Shown: positions 34-34,481 of the stretch, piece after piece
Position numbering within the stretch: position 1 is the stretch's first letter
How the letters are laid out: the number at the start of each line of letters is the position of its first letter
Virus record (IMG/VR): IMGVR_UViG_3300038657_000084
Span: 1-34,492 of that record
From: a virus
DNA length: 34,492 nt
Reading direction: 5' to 3' (one strand)
Made by a program: the position numbers and the translations under genes
The notes under the pieces: model-generated
The model's database searches: none
The model's input: the letters and a program-made list of their open reading frames with translations, nothing else
What the model was told of the DNA's origin: nothing

Positions 34-81
34 CCAAAAACAAATCGTCCCACAAATCCAAAAACAAATCGTCCCACAAAT
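34..81. repeat. Two perfect 24-bp tandem repeats, candidate transposase end-binding sites
   Basis: Positions 34-57 and 58-81 are identical 24-mers beginning CCAAAAACAAATCG and ending TCCCACAAAT. A degenerate partial unit precedes them at about 22-33 (GCCCTAAATCG). The core CCAAAAACAAA recurs near the other end of the window on the opposite strand (34350-34368, 34463-34481). Repeated sites in inverted orientation at the two ends are what MuA-type transposases bind. I infer that this is the Mu right-end equivalent. The exact terminal dinucleotide of the element cannot be fixed from this window. Confidence 0.6.
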
Positions 82-89
82 ATGGACAT

Positions 90-126
90 AAAAACGCCGC
101 TCAAACATCGTTCGAGCGGCGTTTTT
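90..126. terminator. Bidirectional intrinsic terminator after the tail operon
   Basis: The stem is AAAAACGCCGCTC (90-102) pairing with GAGCGGCGTTTTT (114-126), a perfect 13 bp around an 11-nt loop. A run of A on the left and T on the right give a U-tract in either direction. It lies 19 bp beyond the stop of the last minus-strand tail gene, so it should end the late tail transcript and also block transcription entering from outside. Confidence 0.88.
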
Positions 127-144
127 TATGTACCTAAGCGATGC

Positions 145-861
145 TTATAGCACGTAAGATACATCTAAATTAAGGTCGCCGGAGACCGTAACCTGAGAAC
201 CTCCAGAATCGGTGGTTCCTATGATCACTTGACCAGAGGAGGGAATAGAAATCGAGCCACGTGAAATAGCTAATCTACGAGTCTCAGAAGGCCGATAAGC
301 CAAAGGTACCGTAAACGCCAAAAGGTTAGTTTCACCGCCTGTAATCGCACCAGTGATGTGAATTACGTTTCCTTTTTTGTGGTACTTCGGCACAAATCCA
401 CTCGCGGCTCCCCATCCATTATCAAAAGCGTTAACATTTTCTACTGCGTAAAAACGGCCCGTGGTATCCAGTGGAATCTCTACGCCAGAGTTCAAGCCAT
501 CGGATATGATTGCACGACGATTTTCGTACGTCTCACGACTCACGCTGTCGGCGAAAACCTCTGTCCCAGCAGCGTCGAAACTGCTCACTAATTTGAGGCT
601 CGAAACGGCCAAAGAGGCTACACCAACCGTCTGCGCTGGACAGTAGCAAATCTCCCAATCTAGCATCACATATCCTTCTGTGACACTGGCAAATCCAGCC
701 GCAAAAGTGGCCACACAGCCACTAATAACAAAGTTCCCGGAATAGGCTTGGCCATACTCGAAAAAGATAGCCTTAAACGCCTCCACGACGCCAGCATTAA
801 TCCAGTTAAAATCGTCGCCTTCAAGTGGCATTCCGCCGTTTGGAATAAGTAGTTTTTTCAT
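145..861 (-). CDS. Distal tail fibre or tail-tip structural protein (238 aa)
   Basis: This is the last gene of the tail operon, 1 bp after the gpI-position gene, where contractile-tail phages place fibre genes. The sequence is rich in G, S, T and aromatic residues, with a short N-terminal adaptor-like part (NGGMPLEGDDFNWINAG). The C-terminal half (about 150-238) has alternating beta-type segments like those of trimeric fibre tips, ending in DLNLDVSYVL. No enzymatic motif, signal peptide or membrane segment is visible. The role in host attachment is inferred from position and composition. I do not recognise a specific family. Confidence 0.55.
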   Translation of the reverse strand: MKKLLIPNGGMPLEGDDFNWINAGVVEAFKAIFFEYGQAYSGNFVISGCVATFAAGFASVTEGYVMLDWEICYCPAQTVGVASLAVSSLKLVSSFDAAGTEVFADSVSRETYENRRAIISDGLNSGVEIPLDTTGRFYAVENVNAFDNGWGAASGFVPKYHKKGNVIHITGAITGGETNLLAFTVPLAYRPSETRRLAISRGSISIPSSGQVIIGTTDSGGSQVTVSGDLNLDVSYVL

Positions 862-862
862 A

Positions 863-1459
863 TTAGTTGTATGGCCAGGCAGGGCCGCCCGGAGTGACTT
901 GAATAGAGTATCGTTTGCCAGCTTGTTTGTACTGGTTTACTCGCGCTCGAATGAGGCTTTCTCCAGTGCTGGTGATATTACTGTAAGGGATGACGATAAT
1001 AAAATCATCATCATTGGCTAGGTCTGCGCGATTGAGCAAAATAGGCGCGGTCTGTGCCTCGCTCTTATTGTACACAATTATCGGCTGAGCATCTGGCTTG
1101 TTGTCCAGATACAATGGTACGGAAGCATCTCCGTCCTCTATATAAATACGGATGCTAATTGGGTCGTATAAGTCATTCAAATACTTCTCCAAATACACCA
1201 CCTGGCCAGTCAGGTACATAGAGTACCTGGTACCAGCCACAAACGTCCGGAACAACTCATTCACCGCAGTCAGCGGAGAGACCAAAACACGCAACCAGGC
1301 AAGGTGCCTACTGGCCGACCCGGTACCCCACGCTTGGCCATCAGCAGTAACCCAAAAGAAGTCACTGGCCGTGACCCAGCTCACTGCACCTTTTTGCTGA
1401 AGAAAATGCGGTAGCAAATCCTTCGTAATCTTCACGAAGTCGATCAGGTAGCTTCTCAT
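863..1459 (-). CDS. Baseplate-to-fibre protein in the gpI position (198 aa)
   Basis: The start ATG overlaps the stop of the baseplate J gene by 4 bp, so the two are translationally coupled. In P2 and Mu-type tails the gene after J encodes gpI/gp48, which joins the baseplate wedge to the fibres. The N-terminal 30 residues (FVKITKDLLPHFLQQ) are helical, followed by aromatic-rich beta segments and a C-terminal part rich in N, Q and G. I do not see a clear match to the classical gpI family, so the assignment is positional. Confidence 0.5.
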   Translation of the reverse strand: MRSYLIDFVKITKDLLPHFLQQKGAVSWVTASDFFWVTADGQAWGTGSASRHLAWLRVLVSPLTAVNELFRTFVAGTRYSMYLTGQVVYLEKYLNDLYDPISIRIYIEDGDASVPLYLDNKPDAQPIIVYNKSEAQTAPILLNRADLANDDDFIIVIPYSNITSTGESLIRARVNQYKQAGKRYSIQVTPGGPAWPYN

Positions 1460-2298
1460 CCTATGAAGGGTATGAAGTTAAACAAATTGTCTACGGTATC
1501 ACTCATAGTGAAATAGCCCGCAGCAGGTACATACCTCACGTTTATTGTGATGTAGCTGCCGCCATCTGGCAGCACCTTTGTATTAGTCTCCACGGGGTCT
1601 ACGACACCCGTAACAGCCTGGAGCACGTCAGTAAACTTTGTCACCCGGTACTCACCATTAAAAGGTAGCGTAGAGAAGTACGCATCCACCGCCGATTGCA
1701 ATGCTGGCACCAGGTCAGCAATTGGAATAATAGGATCGTAGTACACGTCGTAAAGCGGTGTGATCACATCAGGATTAAGGCTCGTTACAGCCAACCTGGT
1801 ACCCGCAAATTTGATCTTATTCGCGTAGCTCTCGGCTGCGGATTTCTCCGGAGCAGAAAGCGGCGACAAAGTAGTCGTTCCCTTAGCCACCTTCACAATC
1901 AACGCCCCATCGCTGCGCTCCTCAATAGCGCACCTGGTGATGATCTGCGCATCTGTGTCAATGGTGGCGTAATTGTATTGAAAATTCGCGTACACCAGCG
2001 CATAGCCAAACTGAAACTTGAGCATTTGCGCCCGGTACCATTGCGCAGTGCCTGCCGGAGCTGCGGCGGCTATTGCCTCTACCTCCGTCTTGAATATATC
2101 CCAGGCTACTTCGTGTACATGAATCGCCACGGCGGTAATCCACGCCCACAAACGCCAAACAGCCGCCTTACTGTTACTCGTAAGGTCGGCCAACAAGGTA
2201 GCAGCAGTATCAGGATCAGGCAGTAATCCCGCCAGCTCCGTCTGCTCTTCTTTTTCCGCGATAATCGCATCGTAAATGTCTGCTATCGTGCGTGCCAT
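1456..2298 (-). CDS. Baseplate J-like protein (280 aa)
   Basis: This is a baseplate wedge component of the contractile tail. The N-terminus (ARTIADIYDAIIAEKEEQ) and the helical tract at about 45-75 (AVWRLWAWITAVAIHVHEVAWDI) are typical of the short Bacteroidota version of P2 gpJ/Mu gp47. The C-terminus has the usual beta-rich end with an NVRYVPAAGYF segment. It starts at the stop of the LysM-like gene (1-base overlap) and precedes the gpI-position gene, matching the conserved order spike, gp25, J, I. Classical J proteins are usually longer. Confidence 0.8.
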   Translation of the reverse strand: MARTIADIYDAIIAEKEEQTELAGLLPDPDTAATLLADLTSNSKAAVWRLWAWITAVAIHVHEVAWDIFKTEVEAIAAAAPAGTAQWYRAQMLKFQFGYALVYANFQYNYATIDTDAQIITRCAIEERSDGALIVKVAKGTTTLSPLSAPEKSAAESYANKIKFAGTRLAVTSLNPDVITPLYDVYYDPIIPIADLVPALQSAVDAYFSTLPFNGEYRVTKFTDVLQAVTGVVDPVETNTKVLPDGGSYITINVRYVPAAGYFTMSDTVDNLFNFIPFIG

Positions 2299-2522
2299 TA
2301 GTACGTGGTGTTTTGACGGGGTGCTAGGTAATCAACTATGCTTTGATCCACTACCTCCTCCCTTATTTTTAGCGTCTGCTCTTCTTGCTCTACACTGCCC
2401 AGGATAAACTCTCCAGCGTAGTCATTGTCTTGCATGAGCCAGCCAATGGCAGCAATACTACCATACTTAGCGAGTGCGACATCCCACACCGTTTGCCCTG
2501 GTTGTATCTTTGCTGTGCTCAT
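2298..2522 (-). CDS. Small LysM-like tail protein (tail protein X type, 74 aa)
   Basis: The segment IQPGQTVWDVALAKYGS followed by a helix and an ND pair resembles a LysM/gpX fold (G-x-T-x-W-D-x-A-x-x-x-Y-G). Such small proteins sit near the tail hub in P2-like and Mu-like phages and are thought to help tail assembly or contact the cell wall. The ATG overlaps the end of the gp25-like gene by 4 bp. The C-terminal 25 residues fall outside the LysM core. The call rests on the motif plus position between gp25-like and J. Confidence 0.65.
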   Translation of the reverse strand: MSTAKIQPGQTVWDVALAKYGSIAAIGWLMQDNDYAGEFILGSVEQEEQTLKIREEVVDQSIVDYLAPRQNTTY

Positions 2523-2809
2523 ATTCCTATATCTAGTATTCCGTTCTCATAACTTACCTGGCGTGTCTTGTAGCCATCGCTTGCCGCCTGGAGCTGGATC
2601 GTTCGGCGGACTTTCCCGTCAATGATTCCATTCAAATACCGACGGATACCGACGCCCACGAGTGGCCATTGCTTATACTGTCCAGTATCAGCCTCCAGGA
2701 TGTGCGCCAGGTGTTGCAGGTCGCTACTCTCTACAAAGAAGTCGCCCTGGTACACCACAAGATCGTTATCATCCAAAGGGTCAACAATGATGTCAGTACG
2801 TTCACTCAT
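2519..2809 (-). CDS. gp25/gpW-like baseplate wedge protein (96 aa)
   Basis: The length and order are those of P2 gpW/T4 gp25, the small wedge protein whose helix and beta-sheet domain bridges sheath and baseplate. Visible features are an acidic N-terminus (DIIVDPLDDNDLVVYQGDF), a central helix (LQHLAHILEADTG) and the segment WPLVGVGIRRYLNG. It overlaps both neighbours by 4 bp. An EPR-type signature of gp25 is not obvious, as in many Bacteroidota homologues. Confidence 0.65.
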   Translation of the reverse strand: MSERTDIIVDPLDDNDLVVYQGDFFVESSDLQHLAHILEADTGQYKQWPLVGVGIRRYLNGIIDGKVRRTIQLQAASDGYKTRQVSYENGILDIGI

Positions 2810-3369
2810 ATCGTTGTTACTTTTTCACTCAGGTGGTCATCTAGTACCGACCTGATCTGATCCACACGCAATTGCACATTGCTCGTATTAGCAAACAGGT
2901 TGGTAAATCCAGACGCCAGTGGAGCCAATGGCCCGGTACACAAAGCGGCCTGATTAGTACCAAAGATTTTAAGATCAGTAAAAAACTGATCCAGTTGACC
3001 AAAAAGAGCATCCAGCGTTTCGTTTAGGCTTTCGCCTAATACAACCGGCTCACCATCTTCGCCACCAAGCTCTACTAAGCCAGCATGGAGCAATGCCATT
3101 TCAACTTCTGGAGTAGTCACAATACTCGCCGATTTCGGGCTGGTAAATACAGCCAATACCTTACTACCAACCTTTGGCACCAATACCCACCCCTGACCAA
3201 TGGCCACGCCTTGCATCGGAACATCGAAAATATCAGCCCGCCCATCGAGTGGCGATAGTGTACACGTAAGCGTCATATCATCTACCTCGCTCACCGTGGC
3301 CATCACAGCAAACATCTCCTGTCCAGGCTCCGAAAGCTTTCGGATGCTATCTCCTATAGTTCCACTCAT
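2806..3369 (-). CDS. Baseplate spike / gpV-gp45-like protein (187 aa)
   Basis: The N-terminal half reads as an OB-fold spike base: short beta strands around VDDMTLTCTLSPLDG, then GQGWVLVPKVGSKVLAVFTSP, a segment characteristic of gpV/gp45-type central spikes. The C-terminal half lacks the expected needle beta-helix and ends in a helical region (LDQFFTDLKIF ... VDQIRSVLDDHL). It sits between hub and gp25-like genes and overlaps both by 4 bp. The short, helix-ending tip suggests that a separate tip or a host-specific modification completes the spike. Confidence 0.7.
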   Translation of the reverse strand: MSGTIGDSIRKLSEPGQEMFAVMATVSEVDDMTLTCTLSPLDGRADIFDVPMQGVAIGQGWVLVPKVGSKVLAVFTSPKSASIVTTPEVEMALLHAGLVELGGEDGEPVVLGESLNETLDALFGQLDQFFTDLKIFGTNQAALCTGPLAPLASGFTNLFANTSNVQLRVDQIRSVLDDHLSEKVTTI

Positions 3370-4313
3370 AATTTGGCGTCTAAGGTTAGTGTTTGGCGGT
3401 AGCCATCTGCACCAAATGCAGTGACCACCGTTTTCACAAAGTATCTTCCATCTCGTTCGGGATAACTGGCATCTCTCAAATCAACAACATCACCATGCTG
3501 CACAAACGGCTGGCCGAAGATGGTGATCTCACCCCGGTAGCCTTCGTATTTCAGTCGCTCGATCTCCTGGTCGGCCAGGGCTTTCATTTTCGCCTGGCTC
3601 ATACTGTGGTAGTACATCGTGCGTTGCTCTCCGTCCTGGTCGCCAGTTTCGTACTCTTGGCGTGATCCGTCGGGGAACATGCTCACCATCTTCAATTTGA
3701 TGGCCACATCTTCCTTACGCATATACTCCAGGCTATGGCTTACCACATTGCGCTCCATGCGGATAATGTGGGTACTTTGTAGCTCCGGCACGTAAGCTAG
3801 GCCGCAATAAAGCGTACCGTTCCGGAAGAACGATTTCAAGAAATACGTCTTCCTCAGCTCGGCCAACACTTGCGCCGGTGACGCAGACGAAATACGAAAC
3901 GGCCCCAACTCTACAGTCGGGGCCTGAAACGGCAACTCGCCCGGTAAAATGGCACGTAATAGCTCTGTCAATTCTACGCTACGCCACGCTTTCGTGATCG
4001 TGCTTTGTTTTAGCCTCCACGCGGCGTCCTGACATTCAAGTAGGACGGGCGTGTCTGCCGTTATCTTGTGCAGGTAGCCCTCAAAGACTACCTGGTTATT
4101 ATCATCATATCCCAGCTGCACTTGTACCTGGTCCCCTCTGCGCATGAGCGCTTGGTTTGTCCAGGCGAGCGGCTTTCCTCTCCAGTTGAGCTTACGCGGG
4201 ATCGTCAAACGACAAACATCGGTCAGCTCATCCCAAGAGCTTTCTACCTCTACGCCAACCACCTGATTGAAGCGAAAGGTCGATATTGATATTTCGGAGC
4301 TGAGCCTAAACAT
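3366..4313 (-). CDS. Tail hub protein, gpD/gp44-like (315 aa)
   Basis: This is the late-control D/Mu gp44 family baseplate hub, a trimer that caps the tube and carries the spike. Typical features are VGVEVESSWDELTDVCRLTIPRK near the start, GDQVQVQLGYDD with FEGYLHKI, a middle domain, and the C-terminal GQPFVQHGDVVDLRD...GRYFVKTVVTAFG. The open frame continues upstream to a TTG. I chose the ATG at 4313, which overlaps the previous stop by 8 bp. The neighbouring DUF6046 and spike genes support the role. Confidence 0.85.
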   Translation of the reverse strand: MFRLSSEISISTFRFNQVVGVEVESSWDELTDVCRLTIPRKLNWRGKPLAWTNQALMRRGDQVQVQLGYDDNNQVVFEGYLHKITADTPVLLECQDAAWRLKQSTITKAWRSVELTELLRAILPGELPFQAPTVELGPFRISSASPAQVLAELRKTYFLKSFFRNGTLYCGLAYVPELQSTHIIRMERNVVSHSLEYMRKEDVAIKLKMVSMFPDGSRQEYETGDQDGEQRTMYYHSMSQAKMKALADQEIERLKYEGYRGEITIFGQPFVQHGDVVDLRDASYPERDGRYFVKTVVTAFGADGYRQTLTLDAKL

Positions 4314-4908
4314 CCTCAATGAGTTCTATCGGTTCGTCGCTCAGGCAGGTGATCTCAAACACCTGCATATTTTGAAAGCCCTGGAGTTGCTCAAAACGAA
4401 AATCAGAAACCACCACATTGAATATCCGGAACAACTGCAAAAAAGGAGACACTGCCACTATCGAGGCGTTGATCTCTACTAAGTCGAGCAATAGCTTAAC
4501 TTGCTGTTCTGGATAATCACCAGGACCAGCACCCACCAAAGCTCCACGGATACTGATAATGTAATCACCCGTGCTCACGTATTCTTTTACAGTGCCGTTT
4601 CTACCCTGCACAGCAGTCTGTACAATGTTCTTTGATTGATCAACCGTGAGGAGCACTGTTTGGATGTTCAGCTCTTCCTCTGTCGTTTCATCTGCCCTGA
4701 GGGTGAGATCAGCCCAAACAGGTGTTCCGAGCGAAGACAAGATTTCAGCATCCTGTCCACCCGTATTCATACGGGTATTCGTAGAAGCTTCCTGCTCGTC
4801 GTAATCGCCACCGCCAACAGGCAGCGGCTGACGCAAACCAGCACGATAAACAACTGGCTTCAATGCCGACAAACCGGCTGATCGAAGTATAATTTCTTTG
4901 CTAGCCAT
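4306..4908 (-). CDS. DUF6046 family tail protein (200 aa)
   Basis: The segment QTVLLTVDQSKNIVQTAVQGR followed by GTVKEYVSTGDYIISIRGAL is the hallmark of DUF6046, a family I know from Bacteroidota phages. It lies between tape measure and hub, the slot occupied in Mu by the DNA-circulation protein gp43. The C-terminal half (EINASIVAVSPFLQLF ... EITCLSDEPIEL) is beta rich. The likely role is connecting the tail tube or tape measure to the baseplate hub. That role is inferred from position. Confidence 0.75.
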   Translation of the reverse strand: MASKEIILRSAGLSALKPVVYRAGLRQPLPVGGGDYDEQEASTNTRMNTGGQDAEILSSLGTPVWADLTLRADETTEEELNIQTVLLTVDQSKNIVQTAVQGRNGTVKEYVSTGDYIISIRGALVGAGPGDYPEQQVKLLLDLVEINASIVAVSPFLQLFRIFNVVVSDFRFEQLQGFQNMQVFEITCLSDEPIELIEDV

Positions 4909-6538
4909 AGTTTGCGTCGTTTACGACCGAAAGCAAAAGGCGCTCCAGCTCTGCTTTGAGCTGCTGGGTACCCATACCTATGGTGCTGGTAGAAATAGTG
5001 ATGCCACCCTTGTTCAGGGCGTCCACATTTATCGTGATATTCTTTACGTTGCCACCGCCTCCAGACACGGCAGCACCTACGGCTTTGTTCACGCCTACGG
5101 AAGAACTACCGGACGCTCCCTTTCCGCCCCCGGAGGGAGAATAAGGGTCTTCCTCAAAAAAAGACTTTTTGCCAAACTCTGGCCCCGACGCAGCGATGGC
5201 CACCGGGTCTTTAAAATCGAAGAAACTACCAAAGAACTCTTTGATAGGCTTGAAAATGTTCTCAGACAACCAATTCCAGGCCGACTTAAACATGTCAATA
5301 ACACCACCCAAGAGGTTGTTAAGCTCTCCTTTAAAGCCTGGAAAGACTCGATCAACCAGGTCAATCATCCACTTAAATGGATGGTTCTCCCACATGAATT
5401 TTCCGAAGTCAACAAAGAAATTACGGAAGCCTTCAAAGTTTTTCCAGAGATAAACCACAGCACCAACGGCGGCAGCTATCCCGATCACTAAGGCTCCTAT
5501 GGGGTTAGCCCCCATTGCTACATTCAGGAGCCACTGCCCCGCAGCGGCCAGTCTCAAAGCTTTAGACACTCCAATAGCAACTACAGATACCGTCTTGAGC
5601 ATAGACCCAATACCAAGGATTGTCTTCGATGCCGCCCACAATCCCAAGAAAGTGCCTCCAGTCCACATTATCACCTTACCCCACCGCAAAAGCACCTCGC
5701 TATTAGCTTGCACCCAGGGGATAATACTCGTAAGCCGCTGCACCAAACCACTCGCGCCTTCGATGAGGCCGTGAATTTGTGGGCGCAACCCTTCACCAAT
5801 CGCCAATTTCAACTGAGTGACATTGTCCCAAAAATTAGACACTTTACCAGAGGTCGTTTCCATGATCGCCGCACTGGCACCCTGCACACCATCTAGCTGG
5901 CCCAGGCTCAGCAGATAACCCTGGATAGCGTCCTCTGTAAACTTAACTTGTTTTTGCTGACCCTTGAAACTAAAGGTCACCTGGTCACCAGATTTTGAGG
6001 CCCGGATACCAAATTCTTTCAATCGCTCAAACTCTCCAACCTGAGCGTCAATAATCGCTTCGCTAAGCATATTGAAGTCCTTACCTGTAGAGCTGGCCAG
6101 ATCAGAGAGCGACATCATCTGATCCATATTTGGGCGAAAGCCTTGGTTGGCCAATCTCACCCAACTATCGGTCAGCTCGTTCACCTGAAACGGTGTGCGC
6201 GTAGCAAAGTCGGTGATGTCACTCATCACCTGCTCGGCCATACTGCCAGAGCCGAGCGTATTGGTAAGCACTGCCTCCATACGCTCAAACTCGCCCAGGG
6301 TATTAATGACTTCGCCACCCAGGTTCATTAGACCCTGGGTGACAAAGCTACCGATCAGCAAATTTCTGATATTCATCAAACCACTACCCATACGGTTAAG
6401 ACCCGCCGTTTGGCGGGCTACACCAGCACCGAACATTTGCAAATTAGCATTGGCGGAGGCTAAGCCCCCGCCAATCTTTTTGATCGCTGGTGAAAACCGA
6501 TCTTTTAGATCGAAGCTGTATGAGTAGTTCTGTAGCAT
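4901..6538 (-). CDS. Tail tape measure protein (545 aa)
   Basis: The N-terminus contains SYSFDLKDRFSPAIKKI, the usual opening of Mu-type tape measures. A long helical region follows, with hydrophobic segments near 285-310 and 345-365 that could insert into the host membrane during DNA ejection. A Gly/Ser-rich linker (about 455-500) precedes a C-terminal amphipathic helix (QQLKAELERLLLSVV). By the usual relation of about 1.5 angstrom per residue, the tail should be near 80 nm. It overlaps the DUF6046 gene by 8 bp. It is short beside Mu gp42. Confidence 0.88.
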   Translation of the reverse strand: MLQNYSYSFDLKDRFSPAIKKIGGGLASANANLQMFGAGVARQTAGLNRMGSGLMNIRNLLIGSFVTQGLMNLGGEVINTLGEFERMEAVLTNTLGSGSMAEQVMSDITDFATRTPFQVNELTDSWVRLANQGFRPNMDQMMSLSDLASSTGKDFNMLSEAIIDAQVGEFERLKEFGIRASKSGDQVTFSFKGQQKQVKFTEDAIQGYLLSLGQLDGVQGASAAIMETTSGKVSNFWDNVTQLKLAIGEGLRPQIHGLIEGASGLVQRLTSIIPWVQANSEVLLRWGKVIMWTGGTFLGLWAASKTILGIGSMLKTVSVVAIGVSKALRLAAAGQWLLNVAMGANPIGALVIGIAAAVGAVVYLWKNFEGFRNFFVDFGKFMWENHPFKWMIDLVDRVFPGFKGELNNLLGGVIDMFKSAWNWLSENIFKPIKEFFGSFFDFKDPVAIAASGPEFGKKSFFEEDPYSPSGGGKGASGSSSVGVNKAVGAAVSGGGGNVKNITINVDALNKGGITISTSTIGMGTQQLKAELERLLLSVVNDANYG

Positions 6539-6539
6539 C

Positions 6540-6947
6540 TTATGCTGCTACCTCTTTCTTCGTCATCGCACGAGTGCGACTGATAAGAACAGTTCCACGG
6601 TTCAGCCATTCGATCCAGTCCTCGATGAGGTATTCCGCCTCGTCGTTGCTCAGGTCGAACTCTTTTGCAAAAACGTCGATAAGCTGCTGGCGCTCGGTTG
6701 GGTCCAAGTCCTTCAGCTCCGCTTTCACTTCGCCAAGGTTGAATCCACGGAAGACCGCAAAAGCGTCAAATCCGATATTCTGAGCAGCTTTGAGGATTTC
6801 CGAACCCTCGACTTTTCCGTCACCATCTTCGTCGATATTAACGACCGTGGTGACCAGACGGCCAGTGAAAGCAACAACCGGGCTTACTGCCTGGATGCCT
6901 AATTCAGCTACCGTCTTAGGTACGAATACTAATGTCTTGGTTGCCAT
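6540..6947 (-). CDS. Phage tail-region protein with a canonical EF-hand loop (135 aa)
   Basis: It lies between tail chaperone and tape measure, with its stop one base before the tape-measure start. Residues 39-50 (DEDGDGKVEGSE) match the calcium-binding EF-hand loop exactly: Asp at 1, 3 and 5, Gly at 6, a hydrophobic residue at 8 and Glu at 12. A helix (ILKAAQNIGFDAF) follows. The remaining sequence is helical and acidic, with a second acidic stretch (FDLSNDEAEYLIEDWIEW) that lacks a full loop. I do not recognise a family. A calcium-dependent assembly or structural role is inferred only from the loop. Confidence 0.75.
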   Translation of the reverse strand: MATKTLVFVPKTVAELGIQAVSPVVAFTGRLVTTVVNIDEDGDGKVEGSEILKAAQNIGFDAFAVFRGFNLGEVKAELKDLDPTERQQLIDVFAKEFDLSNDEAEYLIEDWIEWLNRGTVLISRTRAMTKKEVAA

Positions 6948-6966
6948 TTTGATGGTATTAAAGTGA

Positions 6967-25014: not shown

Positions 25015-25410
25015 TTATTTTAGATGGTAACAAACGCCGTTTTCATCTGGCGAACTCCACTTACGCGACTTATTGATCCTATGCTTATCCTTGATAAACC
25101 AGTATATCTGACTCATATTCAATCCAGCTTTCTTAGCTGAATGAATTAGGATAATGAAACAGTCAGCCCACTCTTCAGCAGATTGATGGTCTGCTATCAA
25201 CTCGTTTACCTCTTCCTTTAAATGATGAAGAGAAGGTTTCGGGTCTGTGGGGTTTCCAAACATCTTAACCGTCCATTCATGTAGTTCATCTTGGAGCGAT
25301 TGCCACCTGATTTCATTACATAGATCAACTATTACATCAAGCTCCGATTCAACTAAAACTAAATCATGCTCTTCATTCAGGTGCGACCATAAGTCATCAG
25401 TAGTTTTCAT
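25015..25410 (-). CDS. MazG-like dATP/dGTP pyrophosphohydrolase, DUF550-type (131 aa)
   Basis: The region LHHLKEEVNELIADHQSAEEWADCFIILIHSAKKAGLNMSQI has the MazG/all-alpha NTP pyrophosphohydrolase pattern: EEVNE followed by a WADC helix, whose acidic residues bind magnesium. The end NKSRKWSSPDENGVCYHLK is typical of DUF550 proteins. Such enzymes hydrolyse dNTPs and can help a phage tune nucleotide pools or alarmone levels. The frame opens at a TTG (25431). I chose ATG 25410, which overlaps the upstream stop by 4 bp. Confidence 0.75.
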   Translation of the reverse strand: MKTTDDLWSHLNEEHDLVLVESELDVIVDLCNEIRWQSLQDELHEWTVKMFGNPTDPKPSLHHLKEEVNELIADHQSAEEWADCFIILIHSAKKAGLNMSQIYWFIKDKHRINKSRKWSSPDENGVCYHLK

Positions 25411-27682: not shown

Positions 27683-27745
27683 TGTAGTTGCGTTTAAAAT
27701 GTGGAGCCACCGCAGCGGCTCCACCTCATAACAAATCATAATCAT

Positions 27746-27900
27746 GAAAAAACGACCTAATTCTTTGGGCTAAGTCCGGTGAGCCATCTACTGACAGCCC
27801 ACCGGTTGAACACCTATAAACCCATATTCAATCGTAGGTTTTGAGACGCTCCTCGGGCTACCCTCAGGCAGCCCTCGGAGCGTGTACATCCCAAAACCAA
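27746..27900 (-). ncRNA. Structured untranslated stretch with two hairpins
   Basis: No convincing gene lies between 27683 and 28104. Two hairpins are clear: CCGGTG (27776-27781) with CACCGG (27800-27805), and ACGCTCC (27846-27852) with GGAGCGT (27877-27883), the latter extended by GGGCT/AGCCC across a 2-by-2 internal loop. Neither is followed by a T run. The stretch could be a small RNA read from the minus strand or a 5' leader of the gene at 27682. No known RNA family recognised. Confidence 0.4.
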
Positions 27901-27987
27901 AGGTGGAAGAGGCAGGATTCGAACCTGCTATGCGCAACTCTCAGTTGATGCGCTCCGTATCCCATGCTTGACTCCGGTTACCTGAGT
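27901..27987 (-). tRNA. Degenerate tRNA-like element (intact T-arm, no proper acceptor)
   Basis: On the minus strand the T-arm GCAGG-TTCGAAT-CCTGC (27928-27912) is perfect, followed by CTCTTCC, discriminator A and CC then T instead of CCA. A D-arm-like ACTC AGGTAACCG GAGT lies at 27987-27971. A 7-base loop CTGAGAG with a 3-bp stem would read anticodon GAG, but the surrounding stem does not close. The 5' strand GGAAGAG needed to pair with CTCTTCC is absent (AATAAGT stands there). It is therefore a tRNA relic or mimic, not a functional tRNA as it stands. Confidence 0.35.
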
Positions 27988-28051
27988 AGACTTATTGATA
28001 ATGCTGTCAGCGCCCGGCCCGGTGGCGGCCAATGCCATCTCCTCCAACTTT

Positions 28052-28075
28052 CCCGCCCTGGCTTTCCAGGGCGGG
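28052..28075. terminator. Very strong GC hairpin without U-tract
   Basis: CCCGCCCTGG (28052-28061) and CCAGGGCGGG (28066-28075) form a perfect 10-bp stem with a CTTT loop, 29 bp after the stop of the 92-aa gene. On the minus strand no T run follows (AAAGTTGG), so it may protect or process the mRNA, or slow the polymerase, rather than terminate on its own. It separates the transposition half of the early operon from the rest. Confidence 0.5.
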
Positions 28076-28104
28076 CAAAACTTCTCAAAAGGAAAACTAA
28101 TGGA

Positions 28105-28383
28105 TCAAATCGTGACAGCGGCTTCCTTTAAAAACTGCTGTATCTCTTGTAGCTCGGCAGACGACAAAATGCGCGTTTTCCCAAGCGCAAACTGCATCCG
28201 TGCCATCCCGATCACGTGGCCAGTTTCGACGATCTCGTAGTGGCCAATCAAGTAGAGCCTGCGCTCCATCTTCACCCGGTACTCGATGCTCGACGTCAAC
28301 TGACATTCTACACGTTGCACGTTTGGGTGGCCATCGTAGTTATCATCTAGCCAGGCGATCAATTCAGGGAGGATCGTTCTCAT
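28105..28383 (-). CDS. Hypothetical early protein (92 aa)
   Basis: I do not recognise it. It reads as a mixed alpha/beta protein (VQRVECQLTSSIEYRVKMERRLYLIGHYEIVETGHVIGMARMQ, then a helix LSSAELQEIQQFLKEA). No membrane segment. The ATG overlaps the stop of the Gam-like gene (ATGA), so it belongs to the MuA-MuB-Gam operon, and it is the last gene before the non-coding stretch. Confidence 0.6.
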   Translation of the reverse strand: MRTILPELIAWLDDNYDGHPNVQRVECQLTSSIEYRVKMERRLYLIGHYEIVETGHVIGMARMQFALGKTRILSSAELQEIQQFLKEAAVTI

Positions 28384-28865
28384 TTGATGAAGAATTTCTC
28401 CTCTTGTTCCACATCAATGCCGAAGCGTTTGAGGTCGGTACCTTTGTCCTTGACCAACTCTACGACCTTCTTGGACTCCAGGCTCTCCGTCACTTTCGTG
28501 CTAACGAGATCGGGGTACCGGGCCTTTAACTTGGTGAGAACATCAGCAAGCTTAAAGCCGTCCAAGATGACTGGCTTGGCAGGATTTAGGCGGAAGCCTA
28601 CTTTACTGGCTCCGAGATCAGTGCTTTTGGCATCACCAGTAAGTAACTCTTCGCGATGCTCCACCACGTACTCCTCGATGATCTTGCCACACTCTTCGAC
28701 TTTAGCCTGGTGATCGACCAGTTTCGCGGCGTGGCGTTCTTCTGCCTCGCTCACCTCGATGCGCTTTTGGGCATTAATAGAATCTACCGCAGATTGCGCC
28801 TTGATGCGGTCACGCACCGCCTGGAGGACTTGTTCTTTGGTAATAGTTGCTTTCTTCTTACTCAT
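28380..28865 (-). CDS. Mu Gam-like host-nuclease inhibitor (161 aa)
   Basis: Mu Gam binds double-stranded DNA ends and shields them from RecBCD-type nucleases. The long N-terminal coiled coil (about 8-75), the segment STDLGASKVGFRLNPAKPVIL and the C-terminal KVTESLESKKVVELVKDKGTDLKRFGIDVEQEEKFFIK follow the Gam family plan (Ku-like). The open frame runs up to 28940, but MSKKKATITKEQ at 28865 is the likely start, overlapping the previous stop by 8 bp. The early-operon position after B matches Mu. Confidence 0.8.
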   Translation of the reverse strand: MSKKKATITKEQVLQAVRDRIKAQSAVDSINAQKRIEVSEAEERHAAKLVDHQAKVEECGKIIEEYVVEHREELLTGDAKSTDLGASKVGFRLNPAKPVILDGFKLADVLTKLKARYPDLVSTKVTESLESKKVVELVKDKGTDLKRFGIDVEQEEKFFIK

Positions 28866-29271
28866 AATAATCAATAGATTGAGGGTTATAAAAACCAGGG
28901 CGTACATCGTTGATGACGGTACGAATCTGCATATCTTCACTGGTCAATAGTTCATAGCGTCCGGAGAGGGTGAAATAAATATCAACCAGCTCTTTCAGCA
29001 TGTCGTACTGATCCAGGTTCATTTTAAAAGGGCAGTTGGCCGCACCCATTGAGTCCTTGATGAGGGTAACAATACGGGTGCGCTTTTCCAGATCGCAGTT
29101 ATTGACACTCATGTCGTCGCTAGTGTTGCGCTTGTAGATTTCCGAAGAGACTACGCGCCTCAACACTGTACAATTGATCTGTTCTGCCAGAATTTCAATG
29201 CCGTTAAAAACTTCGCTTTGGGCATAGCTAGCGCTACGGCCGCTAAGCCTTCCTTTAATTACCATTTCCAT
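28858..29271 (-). CDS. Hypothetical early protein (137 aa)
   Basis: No family recognised. The N-terminus is beta-like (VIKGRLSGRSASYAQ), the middle is basic (VLRRVVSSEIYKRN) and the C-terminal half is helical with acidic patches (NLDQYDMLKELVDIYFTLSGRYELLTSEDMQIRTVINDVRPGFYNPQSIDYYE). It lies between the 116-aa gene (34 bp away) and the Gam-like gene. In Mu the comparable slot holds small semi-essential early genes. Confidence 0.6.
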   Translation of the reverse strand: MEMVIKGRLSGRSASYAQSEVFNGIEILAEQINCTVLRRVVSSEIYKRNTSDDMSVNNCDLEKRTRIVTLIKDSMGAANCPFKMNLDQYDMLKELVDIYFTLSGRYELLTSEDMQIRTVINDVRPGFYNPQSIDYYE

Positions 29272-29305
29272 TATTGTTGCTATTAGTCCGGGCGTAGCCG
29301 GTGGG

Positions 29306-29656
29306 TTAAACTGTTAATTCCTCCGTTTCACGGAGAGCCGCTTCTATTAGTGGCGGCACTGGCTTGTAGGTCTCAAAACGCTCTCTTTGGAATAACTTGT
29401 AATGCTGCATACGGTAGTGGGCCTTGTGCTTCTTGATCCACAGATCATTGAGGTGCCAAATGCCACGGTACCACTGCCAAAATAATCGGCTTCTATTTAG
29501 CCGCGCCGCCATCTGCGGGTAGTAAGTATTGAGGTAGATGCATCCCATGTGGTAGCGAATCCAGAAAAGGTCTTCGCTACAGTAGGCTTCGCCGCCCCAT
29601 ATCTCCTGGAGCATCGTTTGCTCCGTTGCTTCGTGCTTTTGGTCGGAGTTCATCAT
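29306..29656 (-). CDS. Hypothetical Trp/Tyr-rich early protein (116 aa)
   Basis: No family recognised. It is unusually rich in aromatic and basic residues (DLFWIRYHMGCIYLNTYYPQMAARLNRSRLFWQWYRGIWHLNDLWIKKHKAHYRMQHYKLFQRERF), consistent with a small nucleic-acid or protein-binding factor. The start is joined to the stop of MuB by one shared base (TAATG). It stays in all positions on the early strand, so early expression is expected. Confidence 0.6.
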   Translation of the reverse strand: MMNSDQKHEATEQTMLQEIWGGEAYCSEDLFWIRYHMGCIYLNTYYPQMAARLNRSRLFWQWYRGIWHLNDLWIKKHKAHYRMQHYKLFQRERFETYKPVPPLIEAALRETEELTV

Positions 29657-30558
29657 TACGCGAGGGCTTCGTAGGCCATGTCTCCTACGTGGAGGTCGGC
29701 CAGTATTTCCCGGCTCACGGGTAGGTTACGTTCCTGGCTCAGCTTCTCAGCGTTTTCGATCATGTTGCGCAGGGTGCCGTAGTCTTTGGCGTGTGCTATC
29801 AGGTAGTTCAGTGCGTAACTGTCGGTGATGCCGTAGTCGGAGGCTATCGTCTGCACCACCTTCTTGGTGGGGCGGTACAGTGGCTGCCAGTAAGCGATGC
29901 GGCGACGGAGTTCGTCGAAGCCCATCACCTTGCGGCTCGCCTGGCGGTCGATCTCGCTTTTCAAAAACTCGGTACCACCAATTACCATTCCGGCGCTGCC
30001 TTCGGTTGCGTCGTAGATGACCTGGAGGAGGCGTAAGCAGGTGTTGCTCAGCTTTCCGGCATCGTCAATAATCAGGAGGGCATCGGCAGTAGAGACCAGT
30101 TTGCGGATGATGGCGTCCATCATTTCGGCGATGCTACCACCATCATTAAGCCCCATGCTTTGCTGGATGCTGCGCACAAAGGTGCGCTTGGTATGCAGTA
30201 CCGTGGCCAGCACGTAAAATACGTGGTTGTTGGTGCGCTGGTAGTGGCGTAGTGCGGTGGTTTTTCCTGCGCCGGTGTAGCCCGCTACGCCCAAAAAGCG
30301 GCGGTTTTGCTGGGCATCTTTGCACAGTGCGCTGATGCTGGCGTAGTTGCGAGTGTTGCGGATATTCCAGGTATCGATGCGGAAATAGTGCTGCACTTTG
30401 GCGGCCATTTGATCAGATACCTTTTCATCCCACTCACCACGCTTGATGTTGATAAGTGTAGCATCGCTTATGCCGATTTGCGAGGCGAGTTGCCGCTGAC
30501 TGATGCCCGTGCCTAGTGCATCGTTTACCGCTTGTTGTATTGCCGTTCTTTGAATCAT
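29656..30558 (-). CDS. B: MuB-like transposition ATPase (300 aa)
   Basis: Residues 1-60 are a Cro/XRE-like HTH (GISQRQLASQIGISDATLINIKRGEW), as in Mu B. The AAA+ core has Walker A GYTGAGKTT (93-101) and Walker B ALLIIDDAGKL (D165, D166), followed by GGTEFLK and the Arg-rich LRRRIAYWQPLYRP, a sensor/arginine-finger region. MuB forms filaments on DNA, chooses targets, activates MuA and gives target immunity. It is 4 bp after the MuA stop in the same order as Mu (A then B). Length is close to Mu B (312 aa). Confidence 0.93.
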   Translation of the reverse strand: MIQRTAIQQAVNDALGTGISQRQLASQIGISDATLINIKRGEWDEKVSDQMAAKVQHYFRIDTWNIRNTRNYASISALCKDAQQNRRFLGVAGYTGAGKTTALRHYQRTNNHVFYVLATVLHTKRTFVRSIQQSMGLNDGGSIAEMMDAIIRKLVSTADALLIIDDAGKLSNTCLRLLQVIYDATEGSAGMVIGGTEFLKSEIDRQASRKVMGFDELRRRIAYWQPLYRPTKKVVQTIASDYGITDSYALNYLIAHAKDYGTLRNMIENAEKLSQERNLPVSREILADLHVGDMAYEALA

Positions 30559-30562
30559 GTTG

Positions 30563-32557
30563 CTATTCGATTATTGAGCCATCGGCATCGTCGCCGCCAA
30601 AAAGGGCGTAGGCCGGGGCTGTCTTTGGTTTTGGTTTAGTTTCCCGCTCCTGGATGATGCCCAGGAGTTCATTGGTCAGGTCGTTCTCCAGTTGGTTGTA
30701 AGCATCTTTGTGTACCAGCTCGGCTGAGAGCACTGGTAAGCCTTCGTTGCGTACTTCCTCCTTGATCGCTTCCATCTCCGTGCGCTGCCAGTGCAGGTAT
30801 TCGCGTCGGTCGTCCAGGGCTTTCGCCAGAACAGCTCCTTCGCCTTCCGCCCTGTCTACCAGGGCCATTGCCGTTTCGTATTTCTGCCGTGCCGTGGCTA
30901 CCCAGGCTCCGTCTTTGTAGAGGTTGATGTACTCCAGCATATCAGGGTCGTACTTCACTGTGAAGCGTTCGCCCAGGTATTGCTTTCTGAACTCCATGTC
31001 CTCCAGTCCTCGCGAGCGCTCCACCTCGTAGGTGATCCGCTCGCCGTTTACTTGTATCGTCAGGCCGTCTTTGCTGTAGATAACCTGGTGCTTGCGTTCT
31101 ACCCAGAAGAGGTCTACCAGTAGGAGGTAGTCGACCTCGCGTCGTTCCGAGTGTTCAACATGGTACTTTTCCAGCCGCGTCCGGCCATCTTTGTCCTTCG
31201 TATTGTTCCACAGCTCAATAGCGAGCCGTAGTTGTGCAGCAGCTCCTGCTTTGGTAGGCATATCCTTTTCGCGTATTTGCTGCTGGATATGGTCTACATT
31301 GGCACGTGTGCGTTGGCTTTTTGCCGTAATATTGCCGCCTTTCCAGTTGGCAAAGTAGCGCAGAAAACAGCCTTCAATAGCTCCCTGTACCCGCTCGATG
31401 GACTTGGCCTTACCGTTGTAAGGAGCGGTAGGGAACGCTACTCGTGACAGGCGCTTCATTAGGTCGCTAGACTCTGCGCTTTTGTTTGCACTGCTGTTAT
31501 CGTACTGCAACTGGTGAGGCAGGTGCATGGTATTGCCCACTGCATCACGCAAGGCAGCTTGGACCAGGGTGCTGCGCTCTGAACCGCCCAGGGCATAACC
31601 GATGATAGCATCGCTGTTGGCGTCCATTACGTAATAAGCGTAAAGGTCGCTACGTGGCTTGCCGTTCTCCAGGTACAAGAGCTGCACCGTAGTGCCATCG
31701 AGTATCCAAAGCGCATCGGCGAACGAAGGTCTGCGCCGTTTGATGGTTCGTTCCATCTCGTTGCGCATAACCTCCGTTCCGTGCCGATGCCCGAACGAGA
31801 TTTGCTTCATCTTCGGAGTGCTAAGGATCTGGCGCACCCGCTCCTCTGTGAGCGTAGCCCAGCCGTAAGCCTCAGCCTCGCGGTTGTAGATGTTTGCGAC
31901 CGTGACGAAGTCCGGTTTCTGCGGACTAGCGTAGAGGTCTATCAGTCTTTTCAATCCCAGCTCCGTCACTTTGGCGGCGTTGTTGTTGCCTACCGTGCCA
32001 GGTACCAGGCTTTCGTGCTGGCTCTTTAGCCAACGCTCCAGGCGACGCCCGTAGGTGCGCCCGTTTCCTACTTTGAAGCCGTACAGATCGCGCACTTTTA
32101 TCACTTGCGCGGCATCGGCCATAAAGGCGGTTTTGCCGTTCCATCTTGGCGCCCACCACTTGCTTTGCGCGAGGCGCAACCACCCGCAAGCTTCGGCCAG
32201 TTGGTCGGCCTTGTCAGAGGGGAAGGACTGATGAAGGAAAAACGGTGCATCATCAGGCAAAACGCGGCGCAGGGCTTCGTCCAAAAGCAACTCCTGAAGG
32301 TAAGCCAGTTCAGGGGTGCCGTAGTGGTGTTCGATGCGTCGTAGGTACTGATCTGGCACTGCATCCAGGCGCACCCATTTGCGGCGGCCATCGGTGGGGT
32401 CATCGTAGTGCATCCAGCTTTCTGAAGCACCGCTACGGTAGCGCTCAAGCCCCTTTTTAATGGTATTAAAACTCTGCTCTACCACTGGCGCACAAGCGTC
32501 AGCAATGGCCTGCGGATTGATGCAGAGGTGTGTTTGTATTTTGGAAAATCTCGTCAC
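30563..32557 (-). CDS. A: MuA-like DDE transposase (664 aa)
   Basis: The RNase-H-like catalytic core is clear: WILDGTTVQLL (first Asp, D287), LQYDNSSANKS (second Asp, D353) and APYNGKAKSIERVQG (Glu, E388). N-terminal helical domains with basic residues (about 40-190) would bind the end repeats, and the C-terminal part should bind MuB. Length is close to Mu A (663 aa). The frame opens at a TTG (32599) with a hydrophobic, non-coding-like lead. The GTG at 32557 (VTRFSKIQTHLCINPQ) is my chosen start. It catalyses strand transfer for integration and replication. Confidence 0.93.
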   Translation of the reverse strand: MTRFSKIQTHLCINPQAIADACAPVVEQSFNTIKKGLERYRSGASESWMHYDDPTDGRRKWVRLDAVPDQYLRRIEHHYGTPELAYLQELLLDEALRRVLPDDAPFFLHQSFPSDKADQLAEACGWLRLAQSKWWAPRWNGKTAFMADAAQVIKVRDLYGFKVGNGRTYGRRLERWLKSQHESLVPGTVGNNNAAKVTELGLKRLIDLYASPQKPDFVTVANIYNREAEAYGWATLTEERVRQILSTPKMKQISFGHRHGTEVMRNEMERTIKRRRPSFADALWILDGTTVQLLYLENGKPRSDLYAYYVMDANSDAIIGYALGGSERSTLVQAALRDAVGNTMHLPHQLQYDNSSANKSAESSDLMKRLSRVAFPTAPYNGKAKSIERVQGAIEGCFLRYFANWKGGNITAKSQRTRANVDHIQQQIREKDMPTKAGAAAQLRLAIELWNNTKDKDGRTRLEKYHVEHSERREVDYLLLVDLFWVERKHQVIYSKDGLTIQVNGERITYEVERSRGLEDMEFRKQYLGERFTVKYDPDMLEYINLYKDGAWVATARQKYETAMALVDRAEGEGAVLAKALDDRREYLHWQRTEMEAIKEEVRNEGLPVLSAELVHKDAYNQLENDLTNELLGIIQERETKPKPKTAPAYALFGGDDADGSIIE

Positions 32558-32589
32558 GTTATTATCTTTATAGCTAAACAGCAGAAATA

Positions 32590-32778
32590 ATGACAGCAAA
32601 ACAATTAGCAGACGAAGTGCTGCACGAAAAAGAAGTCACGCTTCTACCGTATGTGGTGGCTAAATTCATTCTGGCGTGTCAGCGTTCGTTGCGAGATCAC
32701 AATCATCATACTGAGGCAAAGGCTGCTGCTGAGATATACCTCCAGTTGCTATTGCAGAATCCAGGATTGAGTCTTTAA
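32590..32778 (+). CDS. Possible small plus-strand gene opposite the early operon (62 aa)
   Basis: The frame starts at ATG 32590 with MTAKQLADEVLHEKEVTLLPYVVAKFILACQ and ends in a helical segment (EAKAAAEIYLQLLLQ), plausible as a small helical protein. It is the only plus-strand candidate between the packaging arm and the repressor. Its 3' part overlaps the end of the minus-strand 130-aa gene by 113 bp, and its start lies 33 bp from the MuA GTG, facing away. It may instead be a chance frame. Confidence 0.4.
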   Translation: MTAKQLADEVLHEKEVTLLPYVVAKFILACQRSLRDHNHHTEAKAAAEIYLQLLLQNPGLSL

Positions 32779-33058
32779 AGTACTCTTCCATGACGCTACG
32801 CATGTTGTTAGCACTCCTCCGAAGAGCTACTGTAGAAGGATGATCATTGCTAAGTTCAGTATTCATTGATCTCAGAAGAGACTTCAATTTAATTGCGTCG
32901 GTTACGTGAATAGTCAAGTACTCACCGGTCACAGACTCTACGACTGACTTGAGTTGTCTTTTGAGTTCTGCAAGTTCAGATACAGAGACACCATTGCCAC
33001 CGAAATACATATTGGTAGCTAGCTTCTCTAATCGAATATTGATCTGTTGTCTTTCCAT
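32666..33058 (-). CDS. Hypothetical early regulator-region protein (130 aa)
   Basis: No family recognised. Residues 1-50 are helical (ERQQINIRLEKLATNMYFGG, ELAELKRQLKSVVESV) and 60-95 continue helical (DAIKLKSLLRSMNTELSNDHPSTVALRRSANNMRSVM). The last 30 residues are low complexity (QQQPLPQYDDCDLATNADTPE) and coded in the stretch shared with the opposite 62-aa frame. It lies between the Ner-like gene and MuA on the early strand. Confidence 0.6.
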   Translation of the reverse strand: MERQQINIRLEKLATNMYFGGNGVSVSELAELKRQLKSVVESVTGEYLTIHVTDAIKLKSLLRSMNTELSNDHPSTVALRRSANNMRSVMEEYFKDSILDSAIATGGISQQQPLPQYDDCDLATNADTPE

Positions 33059-33086
33059 GATTTTTGAATGATTTTATGGTGAACAA

Positions 33087-33374
33087 TTAGGACATTGCGG
33101 CGGATGGAATGAAGTGGGTAGGGCGGAGAGAAACCATCTTTTCCTCTAGCTCCTTCATGCGCTTGCGGTGCTCTGATGTAGCTGATTCTTTTGCTAGCAA
33201 AATTTTGCTCGCTTCTAAGAGAAGATCAGCATCGGCAGACTCTCCTTTTAGTACTGCACGAACCCAATTCCTGTGATTGCCTGTCTGTTCAGCGATCTCA
33301 TTGATAGAGCCTCGATGTCTACGTGCAGCATCGTACCAAATAGTATCCATTTTACTATCGTTTGCTTTAGTCAT
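33087..33374 (-). CDS. Ner-like HTH regulator, first early gene (95 aa)
   Basis: Residues about 17-45 (AARRHRGSINEIAEQTGNHRNWVRAVLKGE) form a helix-turn-helix. The rest is a helical, charged tail. In Mu the first early gene, ner, faces the repressor and shuts down the early and repressor promoters. The same position holds here, directly after the divergent operator region. Its sequence is not a close Ner match, so the name is functional by position. Confidence 0.7.
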   Translation of the reverse strand: MTKANDSKMDTIWYDAARRHRGSINEIAEQTGNHRNWVRAVLKGESADADLLLEASKILLAKESATSEHRKRMKELEEKMVSLRPTHFIPSAAMS

Positions 33375-33424
33375 TTCAAGTTGCTATTTTCGCACTGTCT
33401 GTGCGTTCTCTGTTCGTTATGTGT

Positions 33425-33452
33425 GCAATATTATAGCATTTAGCAATACTAT
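33425..33452. promoter_or_regulatory. Operator-like direct repeats in the lysis-lysogeny switch
   Basis: GCAATATTAT (33425-33434) and GCAATACTAT (33443-33452) are direct repeats 18 bp apart, under both candidate promoters. A further short palindrome GCAC-tgtct-GTGC lies at about 33392-33404. These are the best candidates for sites bound by the repressor and the Ner-like protein. Confidence 0.5.
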
Positions 33453-33457
33453 GCAAG
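33426..33457 (-). promoter_or_regulatory. Candidate early promoter (minus strand)
   Basis: Read on the minus strand: CTTG (33457-33454), 20 bp, then TAATATTG (33433-33426), fitting TTTG/TAnnTTTG with one mismatch in each box. TATAAT and TTGCAT 15 bp apart are also present. It would start the Ner-like-MuA-MuB transcript with a leader of about 45 bases. Confidence 0.5.
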
Positions 33458-33471
33458 TATTTCTATATTTC
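33439..33471 (+). promoter_or_regulatory. Candidate repressor promoter (plus strand)
   Basis: TTTA (33439-33442), 21 bp, then TATATTTC (33464-33471), an approximate match to TTTG/TAnnTTTG with one mismatch in each box. It faces and overlaps the early promoter, so polymerases would exclude each other. The repressor ATG lies about 20 bases after the expected start. Confidence 0.4.
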
Positions 33472-33496
33472 TTTTTGAAATATTTTTTATTCCTAC

Positions 33497-34342
33497 ATGG
33501 AAATGGAAGAAAAGGGAGCACGATTAAAGGCTGTTAGGAAGAACTACAAACTCAATCAAAAGGAGTTTGCAGAGTCTATAGAGGTCACGCAGCCTCATTT
33601 ATCGTCAATGGAAAATGGCGGTAGATCCCTATCTGCGTCGGTGATAGAAAATATTGCGCAGTGCTATAATGAGGTAAATGTAGATTGGTTGATACACGGT
33701 CGTGGAGAGATGCATATAAATTCAAGTGCAAACCGTGTGCAAAGTACGCCTGAATCGCGTCACCTAATTGCTGAAAATGTCACCTATCTCGACCAAAATG
33801 ACGTTTTAGAGGAAGAATCGGGAGAATATGTTAAGGAAAAATTTGTCTTGGTAGGAGGCGTTACACATGCGGGCATCGCGCTCGATATACCAACGAAAAG
33901 AGGGATAAGGAACACATTTAGCATACCAGGCATCGCGGGGCCGGGTATGATCGTCCAAGTCCAGGGAAACAGTATGACGCCAGTGCTCACTGACGGCGAC
34001 TACATCGTAGTCACGGAAAAACTCAACAGCTTCGGGGAACTAAAACCCGATAGTATTTACCTCGTAATAGACTCAGAATCAACCGCTAGAGTCAAGTACG
34101 TACACATGAAGGAAAAAGGATTTGAATTGCGCAGCGCCAACGGTATAGAATATCCGCCGCTGTTCCTTATCTTTGATGAAGTGAAGGAGCTATGGCCTGT
34201 AAAGCTCCGTATCACCGTCTCCCTGGAGGTACCAGACACCTCGCCTCACCTCACGGCCCGTATTGCTCAGATAGAACAATACCTCTCCAAGAACGAACCC
34301 GGTTGGCACACCGGTCCGCCCCATTCGTCCAAAGAACCTTAA
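33497..34342 (+). CDS. Phage repressor, XRE HTH plus S24/LexA-type peptidase (281 aa)
   Basis: Residues about 6-60 are an XRE helix-turn-helix (GARLKAVRKNYKLNQKEFAESIEVTQPHLSSMENG). Residues about 115-245 are a LexA/CI-type serine peptidase with Ser159 in VQVQGNSMTPVLTDGDYIVV and Lys200 in TARVKYVHM, and a possible Ala-Gly cleavage bond at 125-126 (VTHAGIAL). RecA-stimulated self-cleavage would make the element SOS inducible, unlike Mu, whose repressor lacks this domain. It is divergent from the early operon. A short polar tail (PHSSKEP) closes it. Confidence 0.92.
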   Translation: MEMEEKGARLKAVRKNYKLNQKEFAESIEVTQPHLSSMENGGRSLSASVIENIAQCYNEVNVDWLIHGRGEMHINSSANRVQSTPESRHLIAENVTYLDQNDVLEEESGEYVKEKFVLVGGVTHAGIALDIPTKRGIRNTFSIPGIAGPGMIVQVQGNSMTPVLTDGDYIVVTEKLNSFGELKPDSIYLVIDSESTARVKYVHMKEKGFELRSANGIEYPPLFLIFDEVKELWPVKLRITVSLEVPDTSPHLTARIAQIEQYLSKNEPGWHTGPPHSSKEP

Positions 34343-34349
34343 ACAACAA

Positions 34350-34368
34350 TGTAGCTTTTGTTTTTGGG
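34350..34368 (+). repeat. End-type repeat copy 1 (TGTAGCTTTTGTTTTTGGG)
   Basis: It matches the copy at 34463-34481 (TGTAGCTTTTGTATTTGCC) at 16 of 19 positions. Its reverse complement starts CCCAAAAACAAA, sharing the core CCAAAAACAAA with the 24-bp repeats at 34-81 on the other strand. A third, weaker copy is at 34401-34421 (GTAGAGCCTTTGTTTATG). Confidence 0.5.
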
Positions 34369-34390
34369 TAGTTGCGAGTGCAACTACTTT
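34368..34390 (+). terminator. Hairpin after the repressor gene
   Basis: GTAGTTGC (34368-34375) and GCAACTAC (34380-34387) form a perfect 8-bp stem with a GAGT loop, followed by TTT. It lies 26 bp after the repressor stop. The T run is short, so termination may be partial. Confidence 0.5.
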
Positions 34391-34462
34391 CAGAACAGGC
34401 GTAGAGCCTTTGTTTATGCGGCTCACAGGGTTTTATGGGTTGCGCCCGAAAATGCCGCCCAT

Positions 34463-34481
34463 TGTAGCTTTTGTATTTGCC
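34463..34481 (+). repeat. End-type repeat copy 2 (TGTAGCTTTTGTATTTGCC)
   Basis: It is the partner of 34350-34368 and lies 11 bp from the window edge. Read inward from the edge (minus strand) it begins GGCAAATACAAAAG, comparable to CCAAAAACAAA at the other end, so the two sets are in inverted orientation as transposase sites should be. Confidence 0.5.

Follow-up and report, generated by a model that had tools for sequence, protein, structure and literature searches.

A Mu-like transposable phage of Bacteroidota with both ends very probably present in a 34.5-kb viral record

The sequence analysed here (the window) is the whole of IMG/VR record IMGVR_UViG_3300038657_000084, 34,492 bp in length, and comparison with 11 relatives indicates that it very probably holds, almost to the base, one full-length Mu-like transposable phage of Bacteroidota, which runs from position 27 (R) to position 34487 (L) and has both of its ends. 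The element bounded in this way measures 34,461 bp and lies with its R end on the left and its L end on the right. With the same high confidence, the repeats at both edges can be read as recognition arrays of the phage's two ends, to which its own transposase would bind. An earlier inspection of the letters alone, here called the sequence-only reading, had proposed that both ends lie inside this stretch and that the repeats are inward-facing arrays of putative transposase sites of a Mu-type phage. Both proposals held up, as the tips and the motif layout recur at the ends of the 11 relatives, with the L end beside the repressor. The record is a member of the Bacteroidota transposable phages, a group already known, and the host of the phage was most likely a member of the Saprospiraceae.

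The features of the window are collected in Table 1. The transposase has 678 aa when read from a TTG, or 664 aa from a GTG 14 codons later, and contains a DD35E triad (D301/D367/E402) whose acidic residues do not vary among six homologues. Its similarity to Mu A is remote (a weak profile match, E 7e-6) and its nearest solved chains are those of Tn7-like TnsB (E 2.6e-10); Mu A and Mu B themselves match phrog_310 and phrog_296, as the MuA- and MuB-like proteins of the window do. The Mu-type head genes Portal_Mu and Phage_Mu_F are present, and tail genes reach to ~65 bp from R2. Read along the minus strand, the order is repressor (-), MuA (+), MuB (+), and further on portal and terminase (-) and protease to tail (+). 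The same order was found in transposable phages of P. gingivalis, in hankyphage, in the Elizabethkingia phage TCUEAP3, and in prophages of Saprospiraceae and other Bacteroidota, with synteny across the whole length to integrated and published elements. Gene order and size thus fit the traits of the Bacteroidota transposable group, whose members span 33-43 kb. The relatives in genomes were found using a terminase alignment; with the MuA or the MuB protein as query, no close relatives turned up in viral contigs, and a genome scan with a two-sequence MuA alignment gave no matches. The sequence-only reading had named phage genes continuing beyond the edges, or a lack of conservation of the repeats, as arguments against itself; the ORFs nearest the edges (145-861 and 33497-34342) both end within the element, and the repeat layout is kept at the ends of related prophages.

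Table 1. Features of the window, with positions counted from its first letter.
Positions	Strand	Feature	Basis
1-26		Flank preceding the R tip, not of the phage, presumably host DNA from a single insertion	Beyond the comparison-defined tip
27-39	+	R tip TAAATCGCC and spacer	First 9 bases equal the R tip of integrated G011
34-57	+	R1, putative transposase binding site	24-bp repeat
58-81	+	R2, exact copy of R1, 24-bp period	Repeat search
90-126		GC hairpin followed by a T-run, terminator-like, just inside R2	Inverted repeat of 17 nt, 94%
145-21117		Late genes: tail, capsid, protease, terminase, portal (Portal_Mu, Phage_Mu_F)	Domain and PHROG matches; synteny with six other elements
28380-28940	-	Mu Gam-like end-protection protein	phrog_491, E 1e-16
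29656-30558	-	MuB-like AAA+ ATPase with HTH	phrog_296 DNA transposition protein, E 1e-49; AAA_22
30563-32599	-	MuA-like DDE transposase	phrog_310, E 2e-47; rve
33497-34342	+	CI/S24-type repressor beside the L end	HTH_3 and Peptidase_S24; phrog_4
34350-34368	-	Inner L site CCAAAAACAAAAGC, putative, 113 bp from L1	Repeat pair; PWM
34402-34419	-	Possible weaker third L site between the other two, GCATAAACAAAGGCTCTA	Tentative; PWM 13.7 bits, rank 7 in the window
34463-34481	-	L1, putative transposase binding site	Repeat pair; PWM 23.6 bits
34475-34487	-	L tip TAAGGGGGC and spacer	TAAGGGGG unique in the window
34488-34492		5 bp outside the L tip	Comparison

The perfect 24-bp tandem repeat described earlier at the R end proved exact, and the window has no exact tandem repeat that is longer; none was present in 8 dinucleotide shuffles. 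The 19-bp pair reported for the other edge is also present, but its copies are not identical, agreeing at 16/19 positions (90% over 20 nt in the repeat search). Similarly, the repeats do sit at the ends of the element but do not form its very tips, which lie ~7 bp further out, at 27 and 34487. The exact core of the sites, the 11-mer CCAAAAACAAA, is limited to three positions in the window (34, 58, and 34367(-)), each less than 140 bp from an edge and facing inward, and the outermost copy of the core, at 34480(-), reads GCAAATACAAA with two mismatches. Allowing one mismatch resulted in 6 matches versus 0.99 expected, and none of the shuffles reached 6. A matrix built from the four sites scored these same sites at 23.6-26.4 bits, which is high by construction, and the best other site in the window at 14.1 bits. 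An 11-mer common to both A-rich 150-bp edges arose in 6 of 500 shuffles, so that the shared word is by itself not very rare, and the strong evidence is comparative.

Equivalents of R1 were found in G010, G011, G012, G013, G014, G016, G243, P. gingivalis phage 008 (Pg008), hankyphage, and Mu. G010 is the closest element with both ends (49% identity in MuA); its R1 and R2 form a tandem that repeats every 23 bp, and its L end carries the motif too. A second L site lies 66-103 bp in for G010, G011, G013, and G014, and the spacing of L sites in the clade is 66-113 bp. The sequences of the sites differ among relatives, as would be expected if each transposase had its own specificity. By eye, hairpins similar to the one just inside R2 are visible just inside the R sites of Pg008 and hankyphage.

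A third R site was sought in the window but not found, and the sequence-only reading had taken the R tandem, which lacks a spacer, as a possible sign of a distinct end architecture. It is very improbable that this perfect tandem binds the transposase in a way unseen in Mu: R1 does equal R2 over all 24 bp including the spacer, and relatives keep only the core identical, but R1 and R2 of Mu are contiguous as well, with a 22-bp period in the Mu genome record, and the periods of relatives range from 22 bp in P. gingivalis phages over 23 bp in G010 and G011 to 24 bp in G014, the same as in the window. What is unusual at this end is only that R1 and R2 agree at 24/24 positions, as would follow from one site having recently been duplicated or converted. 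A distinct architecture is not supported, the R1-R2 array being of an ordinary kind.

Placing the tips enabled an exact delimitation of the element. In every element tabulated, the core of the first site starts 13 bp inside the tip at both ends, and the tip sequences TAAGGGGG / TAAATCGCC together with this tip-to-core distance recur in 11 relatives. The records of Pg008 and hankyphage p00 start and end at curated tips, TATGGGG / TATAATCGG in the former and TAAGGGGGG (L) / TAAATCCGG (R) in the latter. The window matches curated tips with TAAGGGGGC at 34487(-) and TAAATCGCC at 27(+), which fit the Bacteroidota group pattern of TAAGGGG or TATGGGG at L and a TAxATC-type tip at R. Its L tip is also found in G010, G011, G013, G014, G243, and hankyphage, while TATGGGG is found in Pg008 and in IMGVR_UViG_3300030397_000513 (L014). 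The L tip was placed at 34487 and not at 34489 because of the 13-bp phasing, which likewise told against a tip displaced outward by 2 bp (TATAAGGGG, the form seen in G012). The TG...CA tips expected by the sequence-only reading were not observed, the tips of the clade being TA...TA; a TG does precede TAAGG in G010 and G013, but a TG...CA tip was rejected as there is no such TG in the window, G011, G014, or G243. Scans of viral contigs with tip patterns gave 3 and 56 matches that were mostly chance-like, a 12-mer search for words shared by L and R in distant prophages returned only noise, and a blind search for tips and target duplications in G020, G024, and G028 found no convincing pair.

The edges of individual records show further details. 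The record of the P. gingivalis phage BK068094 (L026, 1-90) has a start unlike a tip and a tip-like TATGTCGCAAAAAAACG ~88 bp in, so that its left boundary may have been set too far out. Positions 1-17 of IMGVR_UViG_3300030397_000513 read GTTTCCCAGTCACGATC, which resembles an amplification primer tag left in the assembly. In the window, an 8-bp palindrome, CTTATAAG at 34484-34491, straddles the L tip and could be due to chance or to a fold-back artefact at the contig edge.

Relatives that are integrated in host DNA strongly suggest that ends of this kind are transposition ends. Exact 4-bp target duplications were found in four of them, at four unrelated host sites: ATAC in G011 (JALHQW010000008.1, flanks ...CAATAC, element, ATACGG...), GCTG in G012 (CALLPN010000013.1, flanks ...AGCTG, element, GCTGTG...), TATG in G016 (a Mariniphaga MAG, flanks ...CTATG, element, TATGTG...), and TACT in G243 (flanks ...CTACT, element, TACTGA...). 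The sequence-only reading had expected a host duplication of 5 bp or a similar length. The fifth base does match in G011 but is mismatched in G012, G016, and G243, and since it differs in three of the four relatives, the duplication was taken to be 4 bp and the 5-bp alternative was rejected. Removing the element and one ATAC from G011 restored a 364-aa ORF matching Peptidase_M19 (E 1.5e-47), and joining the flanks restored a Cas10/Csm1 ORF in G016 (E 1.6e-32) and an SRPBCC-like ORF in G243 (E 1.7e-8), while no long ORF across the joined flanks was found for G012. In G011 and G012 the R tip was located from the site motif, independently of the duplication. The search in G016 already included the 4-bp match, and the duplication helped to place the tip of G243; as the duplication was used in finding these tips, the restored ORF serves as the independent check in both cases. 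The flanks of G010, G013, and G014 mismatch, and their contigs end close to one or both tips. As a side note, the prophage of G016:C64, between contig positions 25113 and 62154, interrupts a type III CRISPR gene, Cas10/Csm1 (L190, L107, L108, L191).

The window itself carries 26 foreign bases outside the R tip and 5 outside the L tip, and the adjoining 4-mers, CTTA and GGGC, do not match. Such a mismatch would be expected if the contig came from virions or a replicating population, as I infer for the window, because each copy would then carry different host DNA. In the MAG contig of G010 (L097, G010:C34, 1-76), a leading stretch that I take to be adapter-like from sequencing precedes 26 bp, presumably of host DNA, after which the L tip begins, as if the contig began at a sequenced end of packaged DNA, a molecule end comparable to that of the window. 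The host DNA packaged by hankyphage measures 29-31 bp on the left and 1-2.3 kb on the right (PMC12135933). In the record of TCUEAP3 (OK632026, L025, 1-31), ~31 extra bases seemingly precede a possible TATACCCCC tip, about as many as hankyphage packages from its host.

The missing duplication in the flanks, and the fact that an 11-mer shared by two A-rich edges is only moderately rare, would also suit a record that was cut at repeats marking the edges by chance or through assembly, with the real phage being longer. This is slightly less probable still than a distinct R end: relatives that lie within long host contigs and show target duplications and restored host genes have these same tips, equally far from the corresponding end genes, and the 34.5 kb of the window equals the length of complete relatives (33-36 kb). 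Equally improbable is that the repeats are operators of the repressor or part of a terminator instead of transposition sites, as a CI-like repressor gene adjoining the L repeats and a terminator-like hairpin adjoining the R repeats might suggest, given that the motif is common to both far ends, faces inward, keeps a 13-bp distance from each tip, and tracks the element boundary in relatives with different end genes.

Taking the repeats as transposase-site arrays, the window can be compared with named systems. The integrated Saprospiraceae prophage G011 (G011:C8:71420-107268) has the tips TAAGGGGGC / TAAATCGCC, with the first 9 bases as in the window, and is 48% identical in MuA and 63% in terminase. 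It differs in an R1-R2 period of 23 bp, in L sites 66 bp apart, and in having its early module (repressor, MuA, MuB, e1, e2; L098-L100) inverted inside the element, an orientation that may be genuine or may stem from the assembly. Transposable phages of P. gingivalis (for which the name Alisviridae is proposed, e.g. BK068090) are alike in gene order, size (34.6 kb), a second L site, tips starting with TA, and an R1-R2 tandem with its own period of 22 bp; they differ in a transposase only ~24% identical overall (29% over the conserved part), in the core, AACGAAACGGGA as opposed to CCAAAAACAAA, and in having three R sites where two were seen in the window. Bounding repeats of 4 bp have been reported for these phages (PMC10367356) and agree with the target duplications in the relatives. 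Hankyphage p00 (BK010646) shares the style of both tips, tandem R sites, the MuA-MuB module, and the gene order, but is 42.8 kb long, carries a diversity-generating retroelement, and has a transposase ~24% identical to that of the window.

Escherichia phage Mu (AF083977) shares the arrays at the L and R ends, the contiguous R1-R2, the module of MuA, MuB, Gam, and repressor, and the Mu-type portal and protein F. In contrast to the TA tips of the window it has TG tips, and its duplication is 5 bp (PMC8705779), compared with 4 bp in the Bacteroidota relatives; Mu A matches all four Pfam models, the Mu-specific HTH_Tnp_Mu_1/2 and DDE_2 among them, whereas the transposase of the window matches rve and, below threshold, Mu-transpos_C only. 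The duplication of B3 is 6 bp, compared with 5 bp for Mu (PMC8705779). For TA tips there is one earlier description, in transposable prophages of Leptospira whose duplication is 6 bp.

In the most likely mechanism, the MuA-like DDE transposase would bind R1-R2 and the L sites, pair the ends, and nick at the TA tips, which would then be joined with a 4-bp stagger to target DNA captured by the MuB-like ATPase. The phage of the window would presumably move by replicative transposition.

It is likely that the Bacteroidota transposable phages form a mechanistic branch of their own, with TA...TA tips, a G-run at the L tip and an ATCG-type R tip, the core 13 bp in, and a 4-bp stagger, as compared with TG...CA and 5 bp in Mu and 6 bp in B3. 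The parts were already known; what is new is that they occur together in phages of Saprospiraceae, Bacteroidales, and P. gingivalis. For the window, the analysis gives exact boundaries to a full-length phage; database entries of this group frequently lack their ends or place them wrongly. A rule that asks for a TA tip at each end, with the first site 13 bp further in, could be used to delimit other transposable prophages in Bacteroidota and to locate where they inserted. Should TA tips and a 4-bp duplication prove general in the clade, these phages would lend themselves to comparisons of how the stagger and the tip dinucleotide are set by a MuA-type transposase.
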